Virus record (IMG/VR): IMGVR_UViG_3300025655_000169
Location: 1-31,924 of that record
Source of the DNA: a virus
Strand: one strand, 5' to 3'
DNA length: 31,924 bases
In this document: piece after piece, positions 2,099 to 31,220 of the stretch
Numbering within the stretch: position 1 is the stretch's first letter
How the letters are laid out: each line of letters opens with the position of its first letter
Notes under the pieces: model-generated
Databases searched by the model: none
What the model was told of the DNA's origin: nothing
The model's input: the letters and a program-made list of their open reading frames with translations, nothing else
Program-made: the position numbers and the translations under genes

Positions 2099-3648
2099 AG
2101 CTTCCTCCAAACGATGTCAAGACCATCGTGCTGGGCGAGGGTGAGGACCTGGTGACCCCGGCCGTCAAGCGAGACGGCGGCGCCGCCATCTACACCTTGA
2201 ACTACGAGGTGGCGGTGGATGGTGGGTACCGGCGTGTCGAGGGCTACGAGCGCCTCGACGGGCAGACAGCCCCATCGGCCGGCGGCACCCGCGGGGATAT
2301 CCTGGCTGTGCCGGGCTCCGGTGGCATCCTCGGCGTAGCGGTCTACGATGGCGACGTCTACGCCTTTCGCGACAACGCGGGCGGCACAGCCGTGGACCTG
2401 TACAAGGCAACGGCGTCGGGCTGGTCGCAGGTTACGCTGTCCAACGCCATCACCGCGGGGGCCAGGATCGATCACTTGGCCTACAACTTCACGGGCGCGG
2501 TGAGCGGCAAACGCCTGTACTGGGCCAACGGCAATGACCGCTGCATCGAGTTCGACGGCACGACCGACACCCAGCTGACCGGCACTGGCGCTCCGACGGC
2601 CCCGCAGCACCTGGCCGCGGCGGGCAACCGTCTGGTACTGTCCTCGGCCGGCGGGCAGGTGGACCTCTCGCCTGTCGGTACGCCGACCAGCTCAGACTGG
2701 ACCGTGACGGGCGGCAGCATCAACATGGGCGACGAGGTCACGGCGATGATCCCGCACGTCGCTGGCGCTCTGACCGTACTGTGCGCAGAGCGCATCAACA
2801 TACTGAACGAAGTGGCCGGCAGCCTCAGCAATGCCAGCATGCAGGAGCACACCTCGCACACCGGCGCCAGGGAGTGGACATCGCAGCGCTTCACCGACGT
2901 GCTGTTCCTGGACACGTTCGGCGTGTCCAGCCTATCCGCCACGCAGGCCTATGGCGACTTCGAGATGAACTCGTTGTCGCGCAGGGTGAAGCCGCTGGTG
3001 GATTATTGGCGGCCAAGCGCTGCAGCGTCGGTAGTCTCGCGTCGCAAGAACCAGTACAGGCTCTACTTTCCCGACTCCGATAACGGGGTGACCGACGTCC
3101 TGACCGGTACCCGGGTGGGCGATAGCATGCGCTGGGCGCGCGGAAAACTAGGCTTCGTGCTGACCTGCGTCACCAGTGCCGAGATCGACGGCGAGGAGCG
3201 CCTGTTCGCGGGCTCCACCTCCGGCATGGTGTATGAGCTCGACGTTGGCAGTGACTTCGATGGCGAGGAGATACTGGCCATCCTGCGCCTGCCGTTCAAC
3301 CACTTGGGAACCCCCAGCGCGTTGAAGCGCTTTCGCCGCATCTGGGCCGACGTCAGCACCCCGGCACAATTCGACGCTTCGCTGTCTGTGGAGATCAACT
3401 ACGCCGACCCCGATACCCCGCCGTCGGTACGGATGACCGACGAGTTACTTGGCGGGGGCGGCATGTGGAGCGTGGATCGCTGGAGCGAGTTCGCTTGGTC
3501 CGCCAGGCAGCTCGGGGAGCTGGAAGCACAGCTCGCCGGCTCCGGCATGAACGTGGGTATCATCCTCTCGTCCCGAGGTGACGACGTTCCTGTACACACT
3601 TGGCAGTCTGTACGCATAAAATATACGACGAGGGCCATTGACCGATGA
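2095..3648 (+). CDS. tail hub/nozzle-like protein (P22 gp10 / T7 gp12 position)
   Basis: 517 residues with a GTG start overlapping the previous stop (GTGA). The N-terminus (PPNDVKTIVLGEGEDLVTPAV) and the NYEV...YRRVEGYERLDG segment are typical of large beta-rich podovirus tail proteins that cap the adaptor ring. The middle contains repeated beta blades with Gly-rich turns (YDGDVYAFRDN, GKRLYWANGNDRCIEFDG, RLYFPDSDNGV), consistent with a propeller-like fold. The C-terminus is beta-rich. It is followed by the tail fibre with a 4-base overlap. It probably forms the tail tube end and closes the DNA channel. The role is inferred from pattern and gene order. Confidence 0.6.
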   Translation: MKLPPNDVKTIVLGEGEDLVTPAVKRDGGAAIYTLNYEVAVDGGYRRVEGYERLDGQTAPSAGGTRGDILAVPGSGGILGVAVYDGDVYAFRDNAGGTAVDLYKATASGWSQVTLSNAITAGARIDHLAYNFTGAVSGKRLYWANGNDRCIEFDGTTDTQLTGTGAPTAPQHLAAAGNRLVLSSAGGQVDLSPVGTPTSSDWTVTGGSINMGDEVTAMIPHVAGALTVLCAERINILNEVAGSLSNASMQEHTSHTGAREWTSQRFTDVLFLDTFGVSSLSATQAYGDFEMNSLSRRVKPLVDYWRPSAAASVVSRRKNQYRLYFPDSDNGVTDVLTGTRVGDSMRWARGKLGFVLTCVTSAEIDGEERLFAGSTSGMVYELDVGSDFDGEEILAILRLPFNHLGTPSALKRFRRIWADVSTPAQFDASLSVEINYADPDTPPSVRMTDELLGGGGMWSVDRWSEFAWSARQLGELEAQLAGSGMNVGIILSSRGDDVPVHTWQSVRIKYTTRAIDR

Positions 3649-5159
3649 CTTATTACACCCGGACGTTCGACAAGAACCCCGGCGACAGCGCGAACGAAGC
3701 CGAACTCGAGAGCGAATTCGACGCCGTGGCGACCGGCTTCCAGTCGGTCGAGGGCGACGTTGACAACGTCGTGCGATTCACCAATGCGGACTTCACCGCC
3801 CAGACCTCCGCAGCCAACGCTGCGACCCGAGCCAACTCGGTGATCGGTTTCGATGGCAGCGGAGATTTGGAATTAAAGGCTAGCTACGACACGGTGCTGA
3901 GCGATTGCCAGACCGCGCAGACTGCAGCGGAAGCGGCGCAGACGGCGGCAGAGGCTGCACAGACGGCCGCCGAGACGGCCGAGACCAACGCCGAGACGGC
4001 CGAGACCAACGCGGAGACGGCACAAGCCAACGCGGAGACGGCACAAGCCAATGCCGAGGCTGCCGAGACCAACGCAGCCTCGGCCCAGGGCTACGCCGAG
4101 GAGTGGGCGAACACGGCGGAGGATTCGCTGGTTTCCGTCGCCGCCGGCGGCGACGGGGCGACCGAATACTCCGCGCGGCACTGGGCCGCGAAGGCGGCGG
4201 CGGCCGCTACGGCGTATTCGGCAGACCCTGGCATTGAAAACCTGCTCATCAACGGCGACATGCGGTTCAACCAGCGCGGGGAGTCCTACGTCACGGCTGA
4301 TGGCTTCCCGGCTGATCGGTGGCATATCGGCGGCTTGGGAACTACGTGGTCGAGTCAAAAGGTGCAGTTCGACCATACGGCGCACCCGATTGCCTCGCGC
4401 CCCGACAGCTACGTCGTCACTGCGGTAACGGCTGGCGCGGGAACCTCGGACTATGTGCTGTTTGGTCAGGCTGTTGAGGGGGTGAGGAACACTGCCGGGC
4501 GCACGCTAACGCTGTCGTATTGGGCTAAAGCGAACAGCAGCAGTCTAAAGGTCGCCATCGAAACGCAGCAGTACATGGGCACAGGCGGTTCCGCCGTCAA
4601 TATCGACTATCAAGGGCAGCAAACCCTCACAACTGGCTGGGTCGAATACCATCACACCTTCACGCTTGATGATCTGTCAGGTGCCACGTTCGGCACTGCC
4701 GGGACAGATTGCCTGTACGTCTTTTTCTGGCTGGATAGCGGCAGCGTATTCGACGCACGAAACGGTGGCATGGGGCACCAAAGCGGAAACATCTACATCG
4801 CGGATGTTCGGCTGTATTTTGGCGGCCAGCAACTTGATGTGGAGCGGCGCGGCGATGCGCAGGAGCTGGCCATGTGCCAGCGATACTACCAGTGCTCCGA
4901 CATAGACAACGCCGGGTCAACGATAAACTGGTCGGGCAATAACACAGTCGCCGTGTCGTATTTCGCAGGCAGAGCCTTTGCTGTGCAGATGCGAGCCATA
5001 CCGGATGTGTCTGGGTCATCCGCCTCTGCTTCTGGGTTTAGCACCAGCATCAACCTAAGTGCATCGGCAATGGGCATAAGAGATGTGCGGGCGTCAACTT
5101 CTGGCGGCGCCGGGAACTATTTCAGAACGCATTGGGAAGCCGAAGCGGAGTTTTTCTAA
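3645..5159 (+). CDS. tail fibre / receptor-binding protein
   Basis: 504 residues, starting in ATGA with the upstream gene. Residues ~1-75 form an anchor region (YYTRTFDKNPGDSANEAELESEFDAV) like those that attach phage fibres. Residues ~85-165 are an Ala-rich heptad-like coiled coil made of repeated TAAEAAQ and TNAETAE units. The C-terminal half begins with NLLINGDMRFNQRG, a common opening of phage fibre tip domains with a jelly-roll, carbohydrate-binding-like fold, and includes the AQELAMCQRYYQ motif frequent in fibre ends. The C-terminal part is visibly less G+C-rich than its neighbours: 4921-4980 is 32 of 60 G+C. This fits exchange of receptor-binding modules. No enzymatic motif was seen. 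Confidence 0.8.
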   Translation: MTYYTRTFDKNPGDSANEAELESEFDAVATGFQSVEGDVDNVVRFTNADFTAQTSAANAATRANSVIGFDGSGDLELKASYDTVLSDCQTAQTAAEAAQTAAEAAQTAAETAETNAETAETNAETAQANAETAQANAEAAETNAASAQGYAEEWANTAEDSLVSVAAGGDGATEYSARHWAAKAAAAATAYSADPGIENLLINGDMRFNQRGESYVTADGFPADRWHIGGLGTTWSSQKVQFDHTAHPIASRPDSYVVTAVTAGAGTSDYVLFGQAVEGVRNTAGRTLTLSYWAKANSSSLKVAIETQQYMGTGGSAVNIDYQGQQTLTTGWVEYHHTFTLDDLSGATFGTAGTDCLYVFFWLDSGSVFDARNGGMGHQSGNIYIADVRLYFGGQQLDVERRGDAQELAMCQRYYQCSDIDNAGSTINWSGNNTVAVSYFAGRAFAVQMRAIPDVSGSSASASGFSTSINLSASAMGIRDVRASTSGGAGNYFRTHWEAEAEFF

Positions 5160-5718: not shown

Positions 5719-7689
5719 ATGGGCCTATTAGACAGTCTGAAAGCCGCGAGCCGGGCAGCTTTGCAAAATGCGGGCGTGGCTTATGACACGTCCTACGACA
5801 CCCCTACCACGCGGAGCGTTATCCCTACGGGCACCACGTCGCTGACGCCGACCGTTACCCAGCGCAGCGCGTCTGCCACCAGTCCGACGGGCGGCGCGGC
5901 GACTACCGGGGCGCCATCCCTGCTGACCAAGGCACAGAAGGCGGCCAGCGCAGGCAGTGCGCCGACCTACAGCGACAACCAGTACAAGACGCTGGCGGCG
6001 CAGATGGGGATCGGCACGGGCGCATTCCGGCAGGATGCGGCGAACCTGGCCGACATCAAGAAACAGGTGGACGCCAAACTGTACACCAGCCCCGTAGCCG
6101 TGGCCGCGAAGGAAAACCCGCCCGTCTCCATCGACACAGGGTACACCGGCGCCAACGCGATCCAGACCACGAACGCGGACCAGGCGGAGGCTGGCTACTG
6201 GAAGCAGCAGGCGCTGGATATGGGCCTCGGGTCGGCATCGTGGCGGCAGAACGCGGACATCAGCGAGATCAAGGACGTGGTGCAGAAGGCGAGCTGGGGG
6301 CTGCCGTACACCATCAACTACCAGATGCCGGGCACGGGCACCGACATCAACCTGCCGGATCGTGTCGGCACCAGCTACCCGGGGATGAAGTACGTCCAGT
6401 ACGCGGACGGCACCTGGGGCTGGGCTACGGACAGCGGCGATCCGAATGCCACGAATTACTGGGGCAGCAGCGGCGTCAACACCATGATCGAGCAGATGGC
6501 CGGTGCCGGGCTGAACCCGATGGCGAACGGCTATATCCCGGGCGTCGGGCCCGCGCCGGGGCTTCAGGGCTGGTACGAAAACTACGACACCCTGCGCGGC
6601 CAGTACCGTGGCTATGCCGGGTATCTGGATGCCACCTACCCGGGCGGCTACGCCCAGTGGCAGAAGGATTACGGCAACGCCCAGGCGGAGTCCTTCGGCG
6701 TGACGCCCAACGCTGACAATAGCAGCATCGTGGGCGGCGGCGGAACGACTCCGGGAACGACTCCGGGAACGACTCCGGGAACGACCCCGGGAACGGCCCC
6801 GGGAACGACCCCGGGAACGACTCCAGGAACGACCCCGGGAACGACTCCAGGAACGACTCCGGGCGATGGTGGCAGTGGCGACTACAACCCGGCGCCCCTG
6901 GGCGATCCCTACACCACGCACGACCGGCTGCTCTACGACCCCTATACCGGGCATATCAACTGGCAGACTGAGACGACCCAGGGCCAGCTCGAGAACATGC
7001 TGGCGGAGAACAGCCCCCTGCTCGAGCGCACCCGGCAGCAGGCCCTTGAACAGGCCAACGCCCGGGGGCTGCTCAATAGCTCCATGGCGATGGGAGCGGC
7101 TACCAACGCCGTTATCGACCAGGCGAAGGACATAGCCGCGTCAGATGCCTCGGCCTACCGCAACCAGGCCCTGCAGAACCAGTCGGACATCAACACGGCA
7201 CTGCGCGACATATTCGGCGCCGAGTCTGGTCTGGCGCAGATCGACCGTCAGTCCCTGTGGCAGCAGTCGGCCATGCGCCTGGAAGGCGCGATCAAGGCGG
7301 ACTTGGCTACGCTGGACGCAAGCCTGGCGGTGGGCCTGGAGGAAATGAAGCAGAAGTACGGCATCTACCTGGAGAACCTGAAGCTCGGCGGCGAGGCCAG
7401 CAACACGTTCGCCAACCAGGCCGCGACGCTGTACGACGGGGCCCTGCGCTCGATCTCCAATATCGGCGCCCAGGACCTGACGCCCGAGCAGTACGCGCGG
7501 GCCGTGGACGACATCATCGCGAGCCTCGACAAGGCCCTGGCGTTCAATGCGGCCATTTACGGAATGGACTACACGCCTGGCAGCGGGACCCCAGACCCGA
7601 TCGTTACCATACCCCCGGGCGAGTCTGACGGGACCAACGACGGACCCCCAGACCCCGCCGACATCATCCCCTCTGACTCGTACGGCTGA
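5719..7689 (+). CDS. internal virion-like protein with TTPG linker
   Basis: 656 residues, ATG 5719 with TGGAG upstream. Residues 1-~330 contain two similar short modules (YKTLAAQMGIGTGAFRQDAANLADIKK and WKQQALDMGLGSASWRQNADISEIKD), an internal duplication. Residues 343-382 are ten TTPG/TAPG units forming a flexible linker. The C-terminal part has NSPLLERTRQQALEQANARG and LLNSSMAMGAATNAVIDQAK, a pattern I recognise from uncharacterised podovirus internal or core proteins, followed by long amphipathic helices. It precedes other putative ejection proteins. Its role in DNA delivery is inferred from this pattern and its position. Confidence 0.6.
   Translation: MGLLDSLKAASRAALQNAGVAYDTSYDTPTTRSVIPTGTTSLTPTVTQRSASATSPTGGAATTGAPSLLTKAQKAASAGSAPTYSDNQYKTLAAQMGIGTGAFRQDAANLADIKKQVDAKLYTSPVAVAAKENPPVSIDTGYTGANAIQTTNADQAEAGYWKQQALDMGLGSASWRQNADISEIKDVVQKASWGLPYTINYQMPGTGTDINLPDRVGTSYPGMKYVQYADGTWGWATDSGDPNATNYWGSSGVNTMIEQMAGAGLNPMANGYIPGVGPAPGLQGWYENYDTLRGQYRGYAGYLDATYPGGYAQWQKDYGNAQAESFGVTPNADNSSIVGGGGTTPGTTPGTTPGTTPGTAPGTTPGTTPGTTPGTTPGTTPGDGGSGDYNPAPLGDPYTTHDRLLYDPYTGHINWQTETTQGQLENMLAENSPLLERTRQQALEQANARGLLNSSMAMGAATNAVIDQAKDIAASDASAYRNQALQNQSDINTALRDIFGAESGLAQIDRQSLWQQSAMRLEGAIKADLATLDASLAVGLEEMKQKYGIYLENLKLGGEASNTFANQAATLYDGALRSISNIGAQDLTPEQYARAVDDIIASLDKALAFNAAIYGMDYTPGSGTPDPIVTIPPGESDGTNDGPPDPADIIPSDSYG
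6745..6864 (+). repeat. 12-bp tandem repeat encoding (TTPG)10
   Basis: Ten 12-base units (ACGACTCCGGGA and close variants with CCC, GCC or CCA) encode TTPG, once TAPG. They form residues 343-382 of the internal virion-like protein and probably a stiff Pro/Gly linker. Synonymous differences between units show that the array is not entirely recent. Copy number is likely to vary between related phages. Confidence 0.9.
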
Positions 7690-10208: not shown

Positions 10209-13200
10209 ATGGCCTTCGACTTTGATGCATTCGACGCGAGCTATTTCAACGAGAAGGCCGAGCCGCCTCCGGCGGACGTGCCCGAGGAGCGGTCCTGGGG
10301 CGAGGCGCTGTCCGATGTCGGCGCCGCTGCGGGTGCTGGCGCGGGGAGCCTCGTCAGCGGCATCGGCAGCTTGGCCGGTGTCGTTACGGGCGACATGGAT
10401 AATGGCTCGGCGCTGCGCGAGATTGGCGACCGCACCAGCGAGTACTGGGGCGAAAAACAGTCGGATTACATCAAAGCGAAGAAAGACAGGCGCAAGGACG
10501 CCGTGGCCCAGGCCGGGGACCAGTGGGGCAAGCTCGGCACGTACCTGTGGGAGACCGTGCAGGAACCCGCACTACTGATGGACTTCGCAGCGGAACAGGT
10601 GCCCATGTTTGTGCCCGGGGGCGCCGCTGGGCGCCTTGTCGGCGCGGGCGCACGGACCCTGGGGGCAGGGGAGACCCTGGCCAAGGGCGCAGCCACGGCC
10701 GCGGCCGTGGGTGTCGGTACCGGGCAGCAGGCCGGCGACGTGGCCGGGAGCACCTACGAGCGCCTGATGGAGTTGGACGAGCGCACATGGGCCTCCAACA
10801 AAGACTACCAGCGCTATCTCGCCGAGGGGGCCACCACCGCCGAGGCGAAGAAGCAGGCGGCGCAGGGCCTGGTAGAGGCGGCGACGGCGGCGGGCACCCT
10901 GGTATCCCTGGGTACTAACCTGCTGCCCGGGGCCCGGGCGATTGAAAAGGCGCTGGCCGGCGGCAAGCCGTTGACCGGAAACGTCATAAAGCGCGTGCTG
11001 ACGGGCGCGGCCGGCGAGGGCCTGCAGGAGGCCGCGGAGGAGTCCTCCGGGCAGCTGGCGGGTAACCTGGCTGTGCGCCAGGTGGACCCCACGCAGGCGA
11101 AGTACGAGGGCGTGGGCGAGGCGGCCGGCGCCGGGCTGCTGTCCGCGGGCTTCGGCGCCGTGTCGGGGCTGCGCAAGGGCGACGCGCCACCGCCCCCGGG
11201 GGGCGACGCCGATAAGGACGTCTCCGCGCTGGTCGGCGCCGTCGACGCATCGGCAGGGAATCAGTCTGCGCCTGTTCAGCCACAGCCTGCAGTTGGCGCG
11301 ATCCCGGCGCTGGGCACGGGCGCCTATGAGCATGTCGGCCCCTTCGGCGTCGGACCCAAGGGGCAGCCCATCGGCACCTTCCGCGACACCGCCACCGGGG
11401 AGGAGGTGCAGGCCATGTACAGCCTGTTCCAGGGGCCCCCCGGCTTCGAAGCCCCCGGCACTGAGACGAAGAGCGCCATCAAATTCGACAATGAAGGGCT
11501 GCCACCGGCTGACGTCGGCGCGATGGCACAGGACCCTAACATCGAGCTCGGCCCGGAGCAGCCGGCGATGCAAGCCCGGCGCGATCTGCAGGACCTTATC
11601 GCGGCCAGCGAAACGGCCCGCGATCCGGCCACCGTCGCGGCACTGAAGGAGCGCGTGCGCCCGCACCTAGCCGGGGCCCCTAACACCGTGGACCATCGGG
11701 CAGCCACCCAGCTGTTCAATGACCTGGCCGCCAAAGAGGCCAACCTCGGCGCCGCGGCGGCGGCCGACACCGTCGCCATGGGTGAGATGGCGCGCCAGCG
11801 CCAGGCCCAGGAGGCTGATAAGTTGGCTCAGGTGGAGCAGGCCTTCGCCCAGCGCCAGGCCCAGCAGGAGCAGCAGAAGGCCCGCGAGAGCGCTATCGCG
11901 GCGGGCCAGCGCGGCGCGCAGCAGGCGGCCGAGCAGTGGGCGATATCCGAGACCCAGGAGCCCCCGGCGAACACGGCCATGGGCGACGCGCTGCGCGTGG
12001 CCCAGGAAGAGGCCGCCCGCAGGCAGGCGGCACAGGAAGTGGCCAGCGACCGACGCGCCGTCGTCGATGCCGGCTACGCGGCGCAGGAGGCCGACACAGC
12101 CGCCCAGGTCGAACAGGGCATGGCAGAGCTTGAGGTGCGCCGCAACGCCTCAGACGCGAGCAGACGGGCCGCACAGGAGCCTTTCAACCCGGCGATGGCC
12201 GAGGCGATGCTGGCGGCCAGAACTCGCGCCGCGCCCGCCGCGTCGCCTGAGACAGCGCCCAACGCCGCGGCAGATCGGGCGCAGGGAATCGCCGGCGCGC
12301 GCCCGGCGCCAGACGTCGCGCAGGAACTGCCCGCCATGCAGGAACAGGCCGATGCGCTTCCACGCCGCGGCGACCGGGCCTCGTTCGCCGACGACATGTC
12401 GTCGCAGCTGGCCTGGCTGAACGCCCGGGCGCAAGCCGTGGGCTTCGCCAACGTCGATGAGATGCTGGCCTCCGACATGGCGCAATTCCAAGAGCTGGCC
12501 AGGCAATGGCGCGACGAGAACCCCATGCCGCGGCAGGCGCCCAGCACCGTGGAGGGCGTGCGCGAGGAGCTGTCCCAGGAAATCGGCGGGTTCCGCGTCA
12601 ACGAGGCGCAGAAGTCCGGGCTAATTCGGATCGTGAAGAACGCCGCCGAAGTGACCTCGGAGGCGGTGCGCAACGCGATCGGCGCCGATGCCGACGTCGC
12701 CGCGGTGTGGGACGGGCAGTCGATGTGGCTGCTGGCCGACAACATCGCGCCGGGTGAATCGGTGCCCAAGATGCTGCACGAAGCGAAGCACGGCGGCACG
12801 GATATCTGGGGCGAAATGGACGACGTGCAGGCGGAATTTGATCGCCTGTTGGCGGAAGGGGATGCCGCGGCCCTGTCGGCGCAGGCCAGGGCGGAGGCCG
12901 ACCCCGCCACCGCGGGCAACGCCAAACTGCTGCAGGACGAGCGCCTGGGCTATTTCACCGAGGAGGCCAGGGCCCGCATGGCGGAGGGCAGCCCGGTGAA
13001 ACTGTCCGAACGTGCGCGGGCCTTGTACCAGAAGATCATCGCCGCGCTGAAGGCGCGCATTCGCACCTCGCCGTTCATGCAGGCGATGGGCGGGCGGTTT
13101 ATCGACTTCAAGCTGACCGATGAGTATGCCGTGGCCCTGGCGCATCAGGCCCTGCGTGCGCTGGAGAAGCGTGTCGTCGGCAGTCACGGCGAGGCCGTCG

Positions 13201-16200
13201 CCCAGCAGGAGGTGCCCGTCGCCCAGCAGGAGGTGCCCGTCGCCCAGCAGGAGGTGCCCGCCGCCCAGCAGGAGGTGCCCGCCGCCCAGCAGGAGGCGCC
13301 CGCCGCCCAGCAGGAGGTGCCCGCCGCCCAGCAGGAGGACGTCGACGGCTACGCGGTAGCCGCTGGTTCTATCGCGCCGCGGTACTCTCTGAGCACTTGG
13401 AACGCAGAGTCGCAGGAAAAACTGCGCGCGGCGAACGAGCGTAACGGCCTGGTGGCACGGGAAGACCTCGACAAGTGGATCGAAGACATCGACTCGATGG
13501 CCGCCAAGGTACTGGCCAACAAGGACCTGCATTTCAACGCAAATCTGCTGTATGACCCGTTTAAGCCAAACAGTGACCCGCACTATAAGTTCTCGCTGGA
13601 CTTCAGCACCTTGTGCAAAAAGCGTCTGGTACTGCAGGCGACCCTGGAAGACATCCAGCTGAAGCTCGACCGTGGGCTGACCGCCACCGAGTTTATGCAG
13701 GTGCGCTCCAGGCTCAAGGCCGAGGGCTACACGGTTTCCTGCGGCGTGTGCTACGTCGACACCCGGCGCATGCACATGGGCAAGGCCATCGAGGAGTTCC
13801 TCGGTAAGGGTATCGCAGAGATCGCAAAGATGTCCAAGTCGGTCGACTATGAGGCTGCCGCCGCCTCGAAGATCACCGCGAAGATGGCCACCGACCCGGC
13901 GCGCCAGGACGAGTTCAAGGAGAAGTTTCCCGATGCTTACAAGGTGTGGAGTTCGTACACCCGCAAGCTTAAGAAAAAGCCAGGCGGCACTCCTGCCGCC
14001 GCCGACCTGAAGCGCGCCTTCGCCGAGTTCAAGCAGCTCAAGACGCCAGGGGCCATGAAGCGGCGCGCTGGACTGGCCGACGCGCGCGAGGCTTTCGACA
14101 CCATCCACAAGGTGCCGAAGCACCTGTTCCTGTCTCAGGAAGGCCTGGATAGGATGAAGGCCGACTACAACGACGCCTACCGAGTCTTCATGGGCTACCT
14201 GAACCCGCAGGCTATGAAGACTCCAGAGAGCCGCACTGAGTACACCAACCAGATACTGGAGCACTACACCGATCGCCGTGGCAGGGTGAGGCAGGCGGCG
14301 GTCGACGCCGTTAACGCCAAGTCCGGGCAGCGTTGGCAGTCATGGTCGGACTTCGAGCTAGTGCATGCCCTGGATGCCATGCAGGCGATTGCCGACATGG
14401 CCGTGGTAGGTCTGCACGGGCACACCTACACCAAGGTGCCGGAAATGCCCCGGGTGCTCGGCGACACCGGGCTGATGATCAACCTGTCACTGATCCCTCG
14501 CGGCAAGGGCCTGCGGTCGGACGGCTCCCTCGACTTCGACCCGGTGGAAGGCATGCCGTTCGATGTCGCCAGGCAGCTGCGCGCGCGCTACGGCCAGACC
14601 ACCGGCACCATCGCGATAGGCATATCCGACGAGCACATTCGCGCCCTGCTGGCGCACCCAGATATCGACTATGTCATCCCCTACCACGCCTCTGGGCTGT
14701 CTCGGGAGAATATGGCCCGAATGGAGGAAGGCATGGAGGGCTGGACCGACTACGCTCAGGTGGCCGGGATGCCGGGTAATTCGAACGACTCGCAAAAGGA
14801 GGTAGTGCTCGACAAGACGAAAGCGGCAGCGGCCGGGGCACAGGTGAAAGGCGGCATGGTGGAGTGGGGCCCCCTGGAGATTGAAAACTGGTGGGACAAC
14901 AACAAAACCGGCGAAGAGAACGCGGCCGAGTACCTGCGCCTGGTGCGCGAGGCCGGGCTGCGGCCTAAGTTCCCGATGTTCGTCAACGCGGACTACACCG
15001 AAGCCGAGCCGGGCTATTGGAAGCTGCTCGTCGACCGGCGCATGTACGACAACGAGGGTATCGGCATCGTGCAGGGCCCGGTGCGCCCGGAGTTCGACAT
15101 GGATGCCGTGCAGGACCTGCTGGCCAATTACAGCAAGGAGGACTACTCGGCGCCGCAGGCTATCGTGACGGACCTGGCCGACCAGATCGAGCGCGGCGAG
15201 AGCGGCGGCGTGCAGGTAGCCATGCCTGCCATTCGAAAGTCGCGCGGGTCCCAGGCAGGGGGCCCCGCGACAGAGGCCACGCGGCCGGACCGTAAAGTCC
15301 GCCGATCGCGTACGGCGCCATCCAGTATTGATTCGGAATACGAGGACGCCGTGGCCCGTGGAGATGCCGACGTAGCGGAGCAGATGGTGGTCGACAAGGC
15401 GGCCCAGGAAGGCCTCGAGCTGCTGGCCGATACCCCGGCCTATACGGTGCGCAGGGGCGCCTCCCCGAGGCGTACAGAGACGGCCTACAAGCTGTTCAAA
15501 ATGAAGCCGTCGCAACCCGGCAAACTGTTCCCCCTATTTGTGGAGGCTGGTAACGCCATCCCGACCGGGGTCTGGCTGGACGCCAGGGCGGGCCGTGAGG
15601 GACCACCATCCAAGACCGGGGTGCGGAGGGTTAAGTCCAAGCTCGGGGACCTGTCGTACCGCCCCGGGTGGCACGCAGGCGACGTGCCCCTAGCCACGCA
15701 CATCGGCGCAAAGGGCAAAGATGGGCGCATATGGGCGCGCAAGGACGATGAGGTCTGGGTCGAGGTCGAGGTAGCCGCCGATGACGGCGGCCGATACCAG
15801 GCCATGGCGAATGAGAACGGCCGCCGCGGGGACGGCACCGTGTCGGCTGCAAAGGCCGATATCAAGGAGATGCCAGTCGACGGCATGTACCGCTACAAGA
15901 CCAACCCGAACATGACCGGCGAATGGATCATCTCCGGGTCCATGAAGATAAACCGCGTGCTGACTGAGGACGAGGTAAACGCCTTGGTGCAGGAAGCAGG
16001 GCTTGAGCCCATGCCCTGGGAGGGCGGCCCCTCGGACAGTAGACGATACGGCGTTGAGCCCGGAGATACGGTTGCGAGCGGGAAGGTGCCGGGTGTGACC
16101 TACGACGATAACGGCGACCTGATACCGCTGAGCCAGCGCATGGACCCCGCCAACCCCGACATCCGCTTCAGCCGAGGTCCCGGGCCCGCCGGTCGGGCTG

Positions 16201-18533: not shown

Positions 18534-18922
18534 CGGGCCTCAAGGGGGACCAGCCCCGCCGCCACTGACGGCGGGGTGGCCCAGGTTTTCAGTGCCCACA
18601 GATGCAGATCGATGTCAGCCTTCGCGGGCGAGGCGGCGCCCCGGTTGTAGACCTTCTGCTTGCGCGGGGCGCACTTCGCACAGTGCTTTGTCTCCTGGTA
18701 CAAACGCGTGCGCAGGCCGTTGAGCATGAGCTCGCCGGTTCTATCGCAGCACGTGTACCGCACAAGCATCTGCGGCTCCAGGCCCTTCTTGCGCTGCTTC
18801 CACTGCACTATTTCCAGCACCTTGAGCCTCAACTCCGGGATGTTTGGCAGTTCCCGGGCGATCTCCGACAGCGCCTCTCCGCGCCGCAGCCGCGCCCTTA
18901 CCTGTTCGACCGTCATGTTCAT
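18530..18922 (-). CDS. small Cys-rich protein, possible zinc ribbon
   Basis: 130 residues. The start at 18922 is chosen because it forms ATGA with the helicase stop and has AAGGAG eight bases before it; a longer upstream extension would overlap the helicase in another frame. Residues ~1-50 are basic and helical (TVEQVRARLRRGEALSEIAREL). A CC pair in RYTCCDRTG and a CAKC about 25 residues later could bind zinc in a ribbon-like arrangement. It is the last gene of the minus operon and ends with TAG overlapping the TAA of the giant gene. Nucleic-acid binding is plausible; the family is not recognised. Confidence 0.6.
   Translation of the reverse strand: MNMTVEQVRARLRRGEALSEIARELPNIPELRLKVLEIVQWKQRKKGLEPQMLVRYTCCDRTGELMLNGLRTRLYQETKHCAKCAPRKQKVYNRGAASPAKADIDLHLWALKTWATPPSVAAGLVPLEAR
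18554..18588. terminator. possible terminator hairpin at the meeting point of the two operons
   Basis: A perfect 8-bp stem (CCCCGCCG ... CGGCGGGG) with a 7-base loop lies at 18554-18576, 21 bases past the late-operon stop, with TTTT at 18585-18588 after an 8-base gap. The T-run is short and distant, so this is a weak intrinsic terminator at best. It sits inside the 3' end of the opposing gene, where it could also slow early transcription. Confidence 0.35.
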
Positions 18923-20289
18923 CGATTGCACTCCTTCAGGTGGTTCATCAGCACGTCCTGCACGCTCTTCTTGGTCTCCCAGCGTTCGCGCACCAGCTCG
19001 TCCACGGTGCCGGGGGCAATGAGTCGATAGACGAACGTGGGTTTTGCCTGGCCTTGCCGGTACAACCTGGCGTTTAGCTGCTCGTACAACGTGAGCGACC
19101 AGACCAGGCCGAACCACACGACGACGCGCCCCCCGGCCTGCAGGTTGAGCCCGTGTCCACCACTTTTTGGGTGGATAAGGAGCATGGGCACGCGGCCCTT
19201 GTTCCAGGCCTCCACGACCTCGGTGCCTTTGCCCAGGGTCTGGGCGTAGGGGTATCGCTTCTGCAGCCTCTCGAGCTCATGGCGAAAGTTGTAGGCCACC
19301 AGGACGGGCTGCCCCCCGGCCTCGGACAAGATGTCGTCCATGGCCTCCAGGCGGGCGTCGTGGACACGCTCCCAGGTACCCGTGCTGCCGCCCTCTTCGG
19401 CGCTGTGGTAGAGGGCCCCGGAGGTGTACTGCAGCAGCTTGCCGGTCTTGCTGGCCGGGTTGTCCGCCACCACGTCGCCCTCGCGCAGCTCCAGGTACCA
19501 CTCTTCGTGCAGGCGCTTGTATTCGCCCATGTTCGGGACGTAAACGGGCACGTCGACCACTTTCAGCGGGGGCATGGTCAAATAGTCCTCGGTACGCATC
19601 GCCAGGCAGACGTCCTCGAGCCGGCGCAATATCTCCTTCTCTGAGTGTGGCATCGCTTCCCACTTGTAGACCATGTGGTTGTTGCGGCCCCCGTAGGCCG
19701 GGCGAAACCAACGATCCCTGAATGCTGTGAATGTGCGCCCCAAGCGTTCGCCTCGGTCGAGGAAGAACACCTGGCCCCATAGGTGGATGAGCCCCTCACT
19801 GGCCGGGGACCCGGTGAGCTCGATGAACCGGTCGACCTTTTTCAGCGTCCTGGCCAGGGCCTGGGCGCGAACGCTGCCGCCGCGCAGCCGGAACGACTTC
19901 AGGTTGTCGGCCTCGTCGGCGACCACCACGTCGTAGGGCCAGCGCTTGCGCCCGACCCAATACTCGACCAGGTTCGGCAGCTGCTCGTAATTGGTGACGT
20001 GGATGACTGAGTCGTCGGCCATGACGGCCGCGCGTTGTTTCTTGGTACCGGTGATGACCGAACAGGTCAGGTGCGGCATCCACTTCGCCACTTCCGCCGG
20101 CCAGGTGTTGATGGCGACACGCTTGGGCGCCACCACCAGCACACGGCGGATTTCATGGAGGGCCCACAGGGTGGAGAGGGCCTGCAACACCGTCAAGGTC
20201 TTGCCCAGGCCCATCTCCCACCAAAGCGCGGCGCTGGGGTGCTCCAGCAGCCACTGCACGCCGCGCTCCTGGTACGGGTGCAGCTTCAC
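18919..20289 (-). CDS. SNF2/SF2 helicase-like ATPase (DEAD type)
   Basis: 456 residues from GTG 20289, chosen because it forms GTGA with the upstream stop and begins MKLHPYQ, the usual start of these proteins; a longer N-terminal extension looks spurious. Motif I is EMGLGKT (25-31), motif II DEAD (125-128), motif III LTGSP (158-162). The second RecA-like domain has SGGHGLNLQ (motif V) and QLNARLYRQGQ (motif VI). This is a compact SNF2-type ATPase of the kind found in phage replication clusters beside family A polymerase and VRR-NUC genes. It probably translocates on DNA during replication or recombination. It differs from the second SNF2 gene at 29277-31220 in size and motif II. Confidence 0.9.
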   Translation of the reverse strand: MKLHPYQERGVQWLLEHPSAALWWEMGLGKTLTVLQALSTLWALHEIRRVLVVAPKRVAINTWPAEVAKWMPHLTCSVITGTKKQRAAVMADDSVIHVTNYEQLPNLVEYWVGRKRWPYDVVVADEADNLKSFRLRGGSVRAQALARTLKKVDRFIELTGSPASEGLIHLWGQVFFLDRGERLGRTFTAFRDRWFRPAYGGRNNHMVYKWEAMPHSEKEILRRLEDVCLAMRTEDYLTMPPLKVVDVPVYVPNMGEYKRLHEEWYLELREGDVVADNPASKTGKLLQYTSGALYHSAEEGGSTGTWERVHDARLEAMDDILSEAGGQPVLVAYNFRHELERLQKRYPYAQTLGKGTEVVEAWNKGRVPMLLIHPKSGGHGLNLQAGGRVVVWFGLVWSLTLYEQLNARLYRQGQAKPTFVYRLIAPGTVDELVRERWETKKSVQDVLMNHLKECNR

Positions 20290-20462
20290 TCGTCGACCGG
20301 CGTCAGTTCGACCCAGGCCGCGGCGCCGCGCGCCGTGCATTGGATCGTCGGGTCCGCCTTCTCCGGGTGCGTGATCTTGAAGGCTTCGGCGTAGTCCGCC
20401 GCCTCGACGGTGTCCTCAGCCACGACTTTACCTAGGTCGATCTGCCGCGCGCGAAATTTCAT
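20286..20462 (-). CDS. small hypothetical protein
   Basis: 58 residues (MKFRARQIDLGKV...). ATG 20462 is chosen because AGGAG lies seven bases upstream; a more upstream ATG gives an extension without support. It overlaps the helicase GTG by 4 bases. The sequence is a short mixed beta/helix (EAADYAEAFKITHPEK; QCTARGAAAWVELTP) with no known motif. An operator-like inverted repeat lies 21 bases upstream, so it may begin its own transcription unit. Confidence 0.6.
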   Translation of the reverse strand: MKFRARQIDLGKVVAEDTVEAADYAEAFKITHPEKADPTIQCTARGAAAWVELTPVDE

Positions 20463-29276: not shown

Positions 29277-31220
29277 TCACGCGCCGAGCTGGCGCTGGTA
29301 CTTGACGAGCAGTTTCTCGGCGAACTGCGCCTGGCGGTCGCTCAGGACGTCCTGCGCGGCCAGGGAGTGCCCGAACCGTGCGTCGAATCGGTTGAAGCCG
29401 GCGCCGTCCAGCTCGCGGGCCCCGTCGCAGCGCCCGGCCAGGTAGCGCAGTTTGTACAGCAGGTCGGCTTTCTCGGCGTAGGTGTAGCGCCGGGCGGCCC
29501 TGGCCTCTACCTTGGGGGCTTCCTTTAGCTCGACACTCATCACGGGCTCTTTGAGCTCGCGCTGGGCCAGGGGGTTGTCCAGGGCGGCGTCGGCGATCGC
29601 CTGCTTGGCGACCAGCGCGCTCGCGATGCGAGCGTCCAGGGACCCTTCGAGCACCAGGTGCTGCACCAGGACAGACTCACTCTGTCCGATACGGTGGGCC
29701 CGGTCCTCGGCCTGGGACATATTGGCCGGGACCCAGTCCAGCTCGGCGAACACCACGTGGCTGGAGCGCGTCAGAGTGAGGCCAACGCCGGCGGCGCGGA
29801 TATTGCCTACCAGCACGTCGGCCTGACCGCTCTGCAGGGCGTCAACTGCGGCCTGTTTGGCCTGGTCACTCATCCCGCCGACGACCTTGACCGCGCGCAG
29901 GTCGGCCTCGGCCAGCCCCTCCATCAGGGCCTGCACCACGTCGACGTGGTGCGCGAACAGGATCACGGGGCCCTGCTCGGCGGCGCTGATGACGTGCTCC
30001 AGCACGTAAGGGACCTTCGCCATGGCGACGTCGTGACGGCGCTCTGCCATGTCGGTGAATGCCACCCGGTACCCAGCCTGCAGCTCGGCCACGGCCTGCG
30101 CGTAGGCGTCCTGATCCTCGAGCAGCTTGGCCAGCTCGACGGCCTGGTGCAGCTCAGCCAGCACGTCCTGGTGGGCCTGGTAGGCCTTGGCCTCGGCCTT
30201 GACAGCGCGGGAGGCGCCATTCTGGGCCAGCTCGATGACCTGGCGGCGCTTAGCCGGGAGCTCCTTGAGCACGTCGGCCTTCAGCCGGCGGACCATCAGG
30301 GACTCGCGCAGGCGCTCCTGCAGCTCGTCGAGATTCTCGGCGCCGGTGAAATCCCAGCCCCAGCGGGTGCGATGGGCGCCGCAGTAGCGCTTGGCGAATC
30401 CGAAAAAATTGCCGAACTGCCCGTGGTCGAGGTAGCCCAGTACGGGCTGGGCCTCGATCGGCCGATTCAGGATAGGTGTCCCGGTCAGGGCCAGCTTGCG
30501 CTCGGCCGGGATGCCCGGCATGCGCTTTGACGGGTCTTTGTCCCACTTGCCCAGGATCGCGACAGATCGCTGGGTCTTGGGGTTCTTCAGGTAGTGGGCC
30601 TCGTCCAGGATCACCAGGTCCCACCGCTGGCCGTGCAGATACGGGCGCCACTTGCGGGCCACGTCGTAATTTACGATTACGACGTCGGTGTCGGGCCAGG
30701 CTTTGCCGATGACGCCGATAGACAGGTCGCGCACCGACCACTTGGCCAGCTCGCGCTGCCAGTTCAGCTTCAAGGACGCCGGGCACAGCACCAGCACCTT
30801 GCGGATCGACTCGTCGGCGTTGATCACGCCGATCGCCTGGATGGTCTTGCCGAGGCCCATCTCGTCGCCCAGCAGGGCGGACTGACGGGCCATCGCGTAG
30901 GCGATGCCGGCCTTCTGGTAGGGCAGGTAGGAGAGCCCCTCGGGGGCCGGGACGTCCAGGTCGGCGTCGGCGGCGCGGGAGGCGGCGACGGCCTCGCGGG
31001 CCTCGACCTCAGCCTCGACGTCGTCCACCCACCACTGGGCTTCCCAGGAGCCGTCGTCGTCGCGCTTGCAGCTTATTCCGGCCGCCTTCAGGGCGCCCTT
31101 GTCGGCGCGCCATGCGTTCCAGAATACGTCGCCGGGTCGAGCGGTGCGCAGGGCCTTGCGACCAAAGCGGGTCTTGAGGTGCTTGGGGGAGCTCCAGCTG
31201 GCGAGGGCTTCGATATTCAT
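29277..31220 (-). CDS. SNF2-type helicase (DEAH; SMARCAL1-like)
   Basis: 647 residues, ATG 31220, with AGGAAA upstream. Residues 1-90 are a small extra domain (AWRADKGALKAAGISC; WEAQWWVDD). SNF2 core: DEMGLGKT (119-126), DEAH (206-209), LTGTP (245-249), second-domain motif V (GVGLTLTRSS) and motif VI AEDRAHRIGQ. The basic C-terminus ends with a helical region. This is the phage SNF2 type resembling SMARCAL1-like annealing helicases and is first after the promoter at 31258-31287. It probably remodels replication forks or recombination intermediates. The N-terminal piece may bind DNA. Confidence 0.92.
   Translation of the reverse strand: MNIEALASWSSPKHLKTRFGRKALRTARPGDVFWNAWRADKGALKAAGISCKRDDDGSWEAQWWVDDVEAEVEAREAVAASRAADADLDVPAPEGLSYLPYQKAGIAYAMARQSALLGDEMGLGKTIQAIGVINADESIRKVLVLCPASLKLNWQRELAKWSVRDLSIGVIGKAWPDTDVVIVNYDVARKWRPYLHGQRWDLVILDEAHYLKNPKTQRSVAILGKWDKDPSKRMPGIPAERKLALTGTPILNRPIEAQPVLGYLDHGQFGNFFGFAKRYCGAHRTRWGWDFTGAENLDELQERLRESLMVRRLKADVLKELPAKRRQVIELAQNGASRAVKAEAKAYQAHQDVLAELHQAVELAKLLEDQDAYAQAVAELQAGYRVAFTDMAERRHDVAMAKVPYVLEHVISAAEQGPVILFAHHVDVVQALMEGLAEADLRAVKVVGGMSDQAKQAAVDALQSGQADVLVGNIRAAGVGLTLTRSSHVVFAELDWVPANMSQAEDRAHRIGQSESVLVQHLVLEGSLDARIASALVAKQAIADAALDNPLAQRELKEPVMSVELKEAPKVEARAARRYTYAEKADLLYKLRYLAGRCDGARELDGAGFNRFDARFGHSLAAQDVLSDRQAQFAEKLLVKYQRQLGA

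Follow-up and report, generated by a model that had tools for sequence, protein, structure and literature searches.

A probable radical SAM domain with a split cluster loop in giant polyvalent phage proteins

The window, i.e., the whole stretch of viral DNA that was analyzed (31,924 nucleotides), encodes a giant protein containing a domain that is probably a divergent radical SAM enzyme. The cluster loop of this domain appears to be split by a hairpin, and the protein itself is of the polyvalent or ejection type, most likely injected into the host. The initial annotation had left the activity open, but suggested that three Cys residues could hold a metal or an Fe-S cluster in an enzyme. This suggestion seems right in kind, as the three residues are invariant and a [4Fe-4S] site of the radical SAM type is predicted from sequence; the activity now indicated is radical SAM chemistry. 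The features discussed are listed in Table 1.

Table 1. Coordinates of the domain, its motifs, the neighboring features and the compact homologues (window positions unless a locus is named).
Feature	Position	Strand	Basis or remark
SU10-type adaptor gene, upstream of giant frame	1424-2095
Tail fibre gene, upstream of giant frame	3645-5156
Giant polyvalent/ejection-type protein carrying the domain, 2774 aa	10209..18533	+	open frame, ATG start
N-terminal aa 57-355, like N-terminal part of N4-type virion RNA polymerase	10377..11273	+	phrog_2206
QQEVP-repeat linker, ~7 copies of a 21-bp repeat, immediately 5′ of domain	13195..13338	+
Domain as first reported, aa 1055-1644	13371..15140	+	alignments A1, A2 and A4, 60-member census
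Core conserved in all relatives, aa ~1113-1629, ~520 residues	13545-15095	+
C1136, predicted first cluster ligand, end of strand 1 (SLDFSTLC)	13614..13616	+	60/60 Cys
41-residue helical-hairpin insertion in cluster loop, C1136 to C1178	13617..13739	+	two predicted helices
C1178-x-x-C1181 (CGVC-YV), predicted ligands 2 and 3	13740..13751	+	60/60 Cys
Second helical insertion, variable, CxxC helix to strand 2	13806..14216	+	length spread in family
R1375-x-x-S1378-x-S1380-D1381 after strand 2, at radical SAM GGE (SAM-binding) position	14331..14351	+
Y1407-T-K1409 at strand 3	14427..14435	+	100/93/100%
N1425-x-S1427 on strand 4	14481..14489	+	98/100%
GTIAIGIS on strand 5	14604..14627	+	G1466 97%, G1471 85%
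I1490-P-Y-H1493, end of strand 6	14676..14687	+	H1493 60/60; NH in compact homologues
Domain 3′ of the radical-SAM-like one, aa 1756-1936, PHROG of unknown function	15474..16016	+	phrog_30118
Compact homologue, L214 (Moorella phage MTATph1 CDS0078)	2980-3675
Compact homologue, L207	1387-2115
Compact homologue, L206	1270-1923	-

Distribution and conservation of the domain

To collect relatives, the window domain and three alignments were used as queries against a viral collection, and bacterial genomes were scanned in addition. This resulted in 62 distinct homologues, of which 60 are full length; the relatives originate from metagenomic viruses. Every full-length relative is situated inside a giant frame of about 1290-5017 residues, some of these being clipped by contig ends, and the median pairwise identity in the 60-row alignment is 29%. 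With single-sequence tblastn, the giant domain was not found in 50,697 phage records and 72,556 plasmids. The compact form described below has no match in the 72,556 plasmids either, and a collection of 84,980 species genomes contains the family at only two loci. The idea that the same motifs occur in conjugative elements is not supported by these counts. Searches of the domain against Pfam, NCBIfam, PHROGs and PDB sequences gave no match, weak matches obtained with one or two family members being disregarded.

The motifs originally pointed out are all present, in the order given: STLCKKR at residue 1133 (C1136), VSCGVCYVDTRR at 1176 (C1178 and C1181), GDTGLMINLSLIP at 1418, DIDYVIPYHASG at 1485 and GYWKLLVDRRMYDNEGIG at 1602. 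The span first assigned to the domain is correct as well, the universally kept part being smaller (Table 1). The family alignment recommended as a check showed the three Cys residues to be invariant, as C1136, C1178 and C1181 are Cys in 60/60 relatives. Of the other residues to be checked, some are conserved: T1420 and G1421 are near-invariant (95 and 97%), in contrast to the rest of GDTG; the His of the Y-H pair (H1493) is conserved in 100% of the relatives; and the Asp of D-R-R is retained (D1609, 98%), unlike both Arg residues. D1131, V1183, G1373, R1375, S1378, D1381, Y1407, K1409, S1427, I1490 and H1493 are additionally identical in 60/60 relatives, and the motif R1375-x-x-S1378-x-S1380-D1381 is conserved at 98-100%. 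Judged from this alignment, the conservation is far above chance, and its pattern is what an active site would show rather than a structural linker. The spacing between the conserved elements is variable: the Cys residues follow the pattern CX41-72CX2C in the 60 relatives, and 88-201 residues separate the CxxC from strand 2. At residue 1579 (14943-14945), 53/60 relatives have a Cys where the window has a Val, which makes this a fourth, non-essential family Cys.

Besides the giant proteins, there are compact homologues. Two of these, both stand-alone, were found when the profile of the core, A4, was run against 398 Bacillota genomes (E 1.2e-9 and 1.4e-8). The third is CDS0078 of Moorella phage MTATph1, annotated as hypothetical and 51% identical to L207 (tblastn). 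The compact proteins are 218-242 aa long and are encoded by stand-alone genes in one phage and two Bacillota genomes. Common to all three are the motifs SLD[LF][TS][TS]xCPxxxxGxPCxYCYV (CX8CX2CY), GGLRxFSFxDY, LKAITKQ, VSVD and NH. In the Moorella phage, the gene is located near integrase and DNA polymerase genes. The L207 gene adjoins a gene that looks RadC-like by eye (2239-2685); in L002, a RadC domain is fused behind the giant domain. The compact family is itself unannotated and radical-SAM-like.

The giant protein and its probable route into the host

The 31.9-kb virus record is probably a fragment. The giant frame is intact and its neighborhood is a phage tail operon: the genes on its 5′ side are structural (SU10-type adaptor, tail and tail fibre), while those on its 3′ side are on the minus strand and belong to replication, encoding SNF2 helicases, DNA polymerase A, an Enc34-type ssDNA-binding protein and DUF2800. 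Two different SNF2-type helicases are present on this one small fragment (18919-20340 and 29277-31220, both on the minus strand). Furthermore, a 12-bp repeat in ten copies (6742-6863) encodes a (TTPG)n stretch in a 656-aa protein (5719-7689).

The window protein itself has matches to PHROG families only. Residues 57-355 match the virion RNA polymerase family phrog_2206 (E 1.4e-14, profile positions 132-447), and residues 1756-1936 match phrog_30118 (E 2.3e-50); the combination of the radical-SAM-like domain with phrog_30118 is also found in relative L001. An assignment of residues 1756-1936 as ADP-ribosyltransferase was given no support by comparison with the L016 flank, and LPD38, which was sought in the C-terminus of the window protein, was not found. 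The repeats of the QQEVP linker in front of the domain (97% matches, Tandem Repeats Finder) may provide a length-variable hinge.

In the relatives, the giant protein combines disparate effector domains, as is characteristic of polyvalent proteins. Within 450 residues after the domain, ART-PolyVal, an ADP-ribosyltransferase, occurs in 19/59 relatives, which suggests that the ADP-ribosyltransferase and the radical-SAM-like domain form a functional pair. Other relatives have C5 methylase (3), LPD3 (3), PBECR5 (2), RadC (2) or LPD23 (1) there; L002 additionally has LPD38. The polyvalent proteins described earlier are likewise giant and multidomain, with ART-PolyVal, PBECR, RadC, LPD3 and LPD38, and they have been argued to be injected (Iyer et al., 2017, PMC5512222). 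The word "radical" is absent from the main text of that paper and no radical SAM domain is described there. N4 vRNAP is described as being ejected into the host and as having a lipid-binding N-terminal domain (PMC12633501). The radical SAM mention for N4 vRNAP in the same paper is based on an HExxH motif only and is unrelated to the domain. The giant protein is probably carried in the virus particle, and its N4 vRNAP-like N-terminus would imply injection with the DNA. The proposal that the domain travels with the DNA thus receives indirect support, from this N-terminus and from the ART-PolyVal, PBECR5, LPD3 and LPD38 domains of the relatives.

A radical SAM enzyme could also act in virion assembly or late infection, e.g., on the phage's own proteins, rather than as an injected effector. 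A labile cluster would be easier to use within the producing cell, and the compact homologues are encoded on their own, in the phage close to genes for integrase and DNA polymerase and otherwise in bacterial genomes. Action at these stages is nevertheless unlikely given the giant context, as the N4 vRNAP-like N-terminus and the polyvalent effector domains belong to proteins held to be injected (PMC5512222; N4 vRNAP, PMC12633501).

Predicted fold and relationship to radical SAM families

The AlphaFold2 model of the window domain, built with the 30-row alignment A2, has a pLDDT of 81.9 and a pTM of 0.80, low confidence being confined to the N-terminal end and the insertions. L002, a compact member of the giant family, is modeled with a pLDDT of 91.3 and a pTM of 0.88. 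Its model comprises, at high confidence, six strands with a helix after each, while Foldseek support for a partial (beta/alpha)6 barrel is weak. The predicted strands 1-6 are SLD(F), RWQ, GHAYT, GLMINL, GTIAIGI and YVIP. In the model, the first Cys (C24 in L002, C1136 in the window) is located after strand 1, and the other invariant clusters are SxSD after strand 2, YTK at strand 3, NxS at strand 4, GxIxxG at strand 5 and IPYH at strand 6. The GTIAIGIS stretch resembles GxIxGxxE, a motif on the fifth strand of radical SAM enzymes. Based on homology and strand order, the three Cys would cluster.

The Foldseek comparison that had been recommended for AlphaFold models yielded no confident PDB relative. 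Against the PDB nothing was found below E 0.001; the better matches are barrel enzymes, including the radical SAM protein QueE (prob 0.54) and anSME (0.30), but the scores of QPRTase and muconate-lactonising enzyme (0.72) are no lower than that of QueE. Against BFVD the one match under this threshold (E 5e-17) is to an uncharacterised phage protein that is probably a family member. Ranks 2-3 are GP88-domain phage proteins, and two Fe-S oxidoreductases are within the top 30.

The relationship to known enzymes runs via the compact family. From profile comparison, this family is clearly homologous to the giant domain: hhalign of the giant domain with the compact profile A7 gave Prob 98.4 and E 5.6e-15, where each E-value, here and below, refers to one pair of profiles and A7 consists of just three rows. 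After removal of the two insertions from the giant profile, the match covers the full length and pairs all three Cys (E 4.6e-26), and BLASTP of the window domain with L207 alone gave E 3e-4. Strand by strand, both have SLDxTxxC, CxYCYV, GGLRxFSFxD, ITK, VSVD and NH. However, the compact proteins have CX8CX2C, do not have the helical insertions (the second is mostly absent) and carry an additional cluster of Cys at the C-terminus, which is missing from the giant domain. These matches indicate that the giant domain corresponds to the compact protein plus two helical insertions, a hairpin separating Cys 1 from Cys 2 and a further one ahead of strand 2.

The compact profile in turn matches 25 viperin/MoaA-like radical SAM sequences (Prob 95.8, E 8.2e-9), which 0/60 column-shuffled controls reach, with the first Cys on the first Cys and CxYC on CxYC. 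It also matches 29 mixed PF04055 sequences (E 2.1e-5, 0/60 shuffles), DUF5131 (E 8e-4, 0/60) and GP88 (E 0.025, 1/60). In NCBIfam, L207 matches nothing but the viperin-family radical SAM model, and this far under its cut-off (E 0.0039). Direct comparison of the giant domain with a canonical radical SAM profile gave a weak signal (P 0.007-0.04; about 0.01 for the insert-free giant profile without compact sequences). The viperin/MoaA-like enzymes (NF038283, PF04055) resemble the giant domain through the profile match via the compact family, the three-Cys loop after strand 1 and the order of the barrel. These enzymes have the canonical CX3CX2C and GGE, and their models miss the giant domain itself. 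At the level of sequence, homology to radical SAM is convincing, via the compact bridge and thus transitive rather than a direct match.

Two phage protein families show partial likeness. DUF5131 (PF07505, phage Gp37/Gp68) shares CxxCYxE, SxSD after strand 2 and TK after strand 3, but consists of short stand-alone proteins with CX6CX2C. It has no significant full-length match to the domain; as sole relative it is consistent but marginal until the insertions are removed, the insert-free giant profile without compact sequences giving P 3e-4 (0/50 shuffles). GP88 (PF17338) shares the three Cys, RxxxxSD and YTK and includes the BFVD structure neighbors, but has CX6CX3C spacing. BFVD and the motif order suggested GP88 as the closest relative; profile-profile comparison gave nothing. 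A Pfam search of the domain found neither family above its cut-off, and GP88 was found in none of 29 virus records searched for it.

In agreement with radical SAM enzymes, all 60 relatives have three conserved Cys in the loop after strand 1, the strand order being taken from the model. Instead of CX3CX2C, the spacing is CX41-72CX2C in the giant and CX8CX2C in the compact proteins, and instead of GGE after strand 2, RxxSxSD is found, similar to DUF5131. Non-canonical Cys spacings do occur in the radical SAM superfamily, and the GGE motif varies across it. ThiC is a member with non-canonical Cys spacing (PMC4389238).

It is quite unlikely, in comparison, that a barrel derived from radical SAM enzymes has lost radical chemistry and uses the three Cys and H1493 to hold Zn or a structural Fe-S cluster, as a hydrolase, transferase or binding module. 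With the additional invariant His that ends strand 6, a Cys3His site could be completed, GGE is not kept as such, and Foldseek finds other barrel enzymes equally well. Yet the compact homologues retain a near-standard CX8CxYCY and align to radical SAM via the Cys and the strand-2 region, and variation at the GGE position is seen in phage proteins of the DUF5131 type, which share SxSD and TK with the domain. Highly improbable is a non-radical-SAM TIM barrel with a thiol-metal site (e.g., Zn-Cys3 methyltransferase-like) that came to resemble radical SAM by convergence: Cys3-Zn barrels exist and the top Foldseek barrels are QPRTase, muconate-lactonising enzyme and TIM, but in Zn-Cys3 barrels the ligands follow later strands, whereas here the three Cys are all placed after strand 1, the radical SAM arrangement, and the homology chain via the compact family places Cys on Cys with 0/60 shuffles.

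Proposed chemistry and significance

For the divergent radical SAM enzyme favored here, the following mechanism can be proposed. The six strand-helix units would form a partial barrel, in which a [4Fe-4S] cluster is coordinated by C1136, C1178 and C1181, and the helical hairpin splits the classical CX3CX2C loop. SAM would bind to the free iron of the cluster and to the RxxSxSD motif after strand 2. A host reductant could then drive reductive SAM cleavage to a 5′-deoxyadenosyl radical, which would abstract a hydrogen from a substrate that K1409, N1425, S1427 and H1493 position at the mouth of the barrel. Entry of the domain into the host together with the DNA is most likely, as has been argued for other polyvalent proteins, and its target early in infection may be a host or phage macromolecule or a metabolite. 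Several points argue against this reading: the direct profile match to radical SAM is weak and the bridge is a family of only three sequences; PDB matches stay above E 0.001, with other barrels scoring like QueE; the Cys spacing departs from CX3CX2C; an oxygen-labile cluster is awkward in a free virion; and LPD38 is missing from the C-terminus of the window protein. As to the labile cluster, it could be assembled in the host after ejection.

A fuller proposal, somewhat on the doubtful side, is that of a new radical SAM family, its cluster loop opened by a helical hairpin of 40-70 residues, that travels in the virion within an ejection protein and modifies a host target by free-radical chemistry during the first minutes of infection, often beside an ADP-ribosyltransferase. 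As far as sequence allows this to be judged, what would be new here is the radical SAM family itself, with its split cluster loop, and the type of protein that carries it. The predicted cluster ligands are invariant across 60 giant phage proteins, yet the family was missed by Pfam, NCBIfam and PDB sequence searches, and it offers a natural example of how far a cluster-binding loop can open. The compact homologue of ~230 aa allows a direct test of the chemistry. Radical SAM enzymes are not among the polyvalent or ejected phage effectors in the defining paper (PMC5512222), to which the family would add radical chemistry. If an injected radical SAM enzyme is indeed involved, it would represent a class of phage effector chemistry without earlier description.
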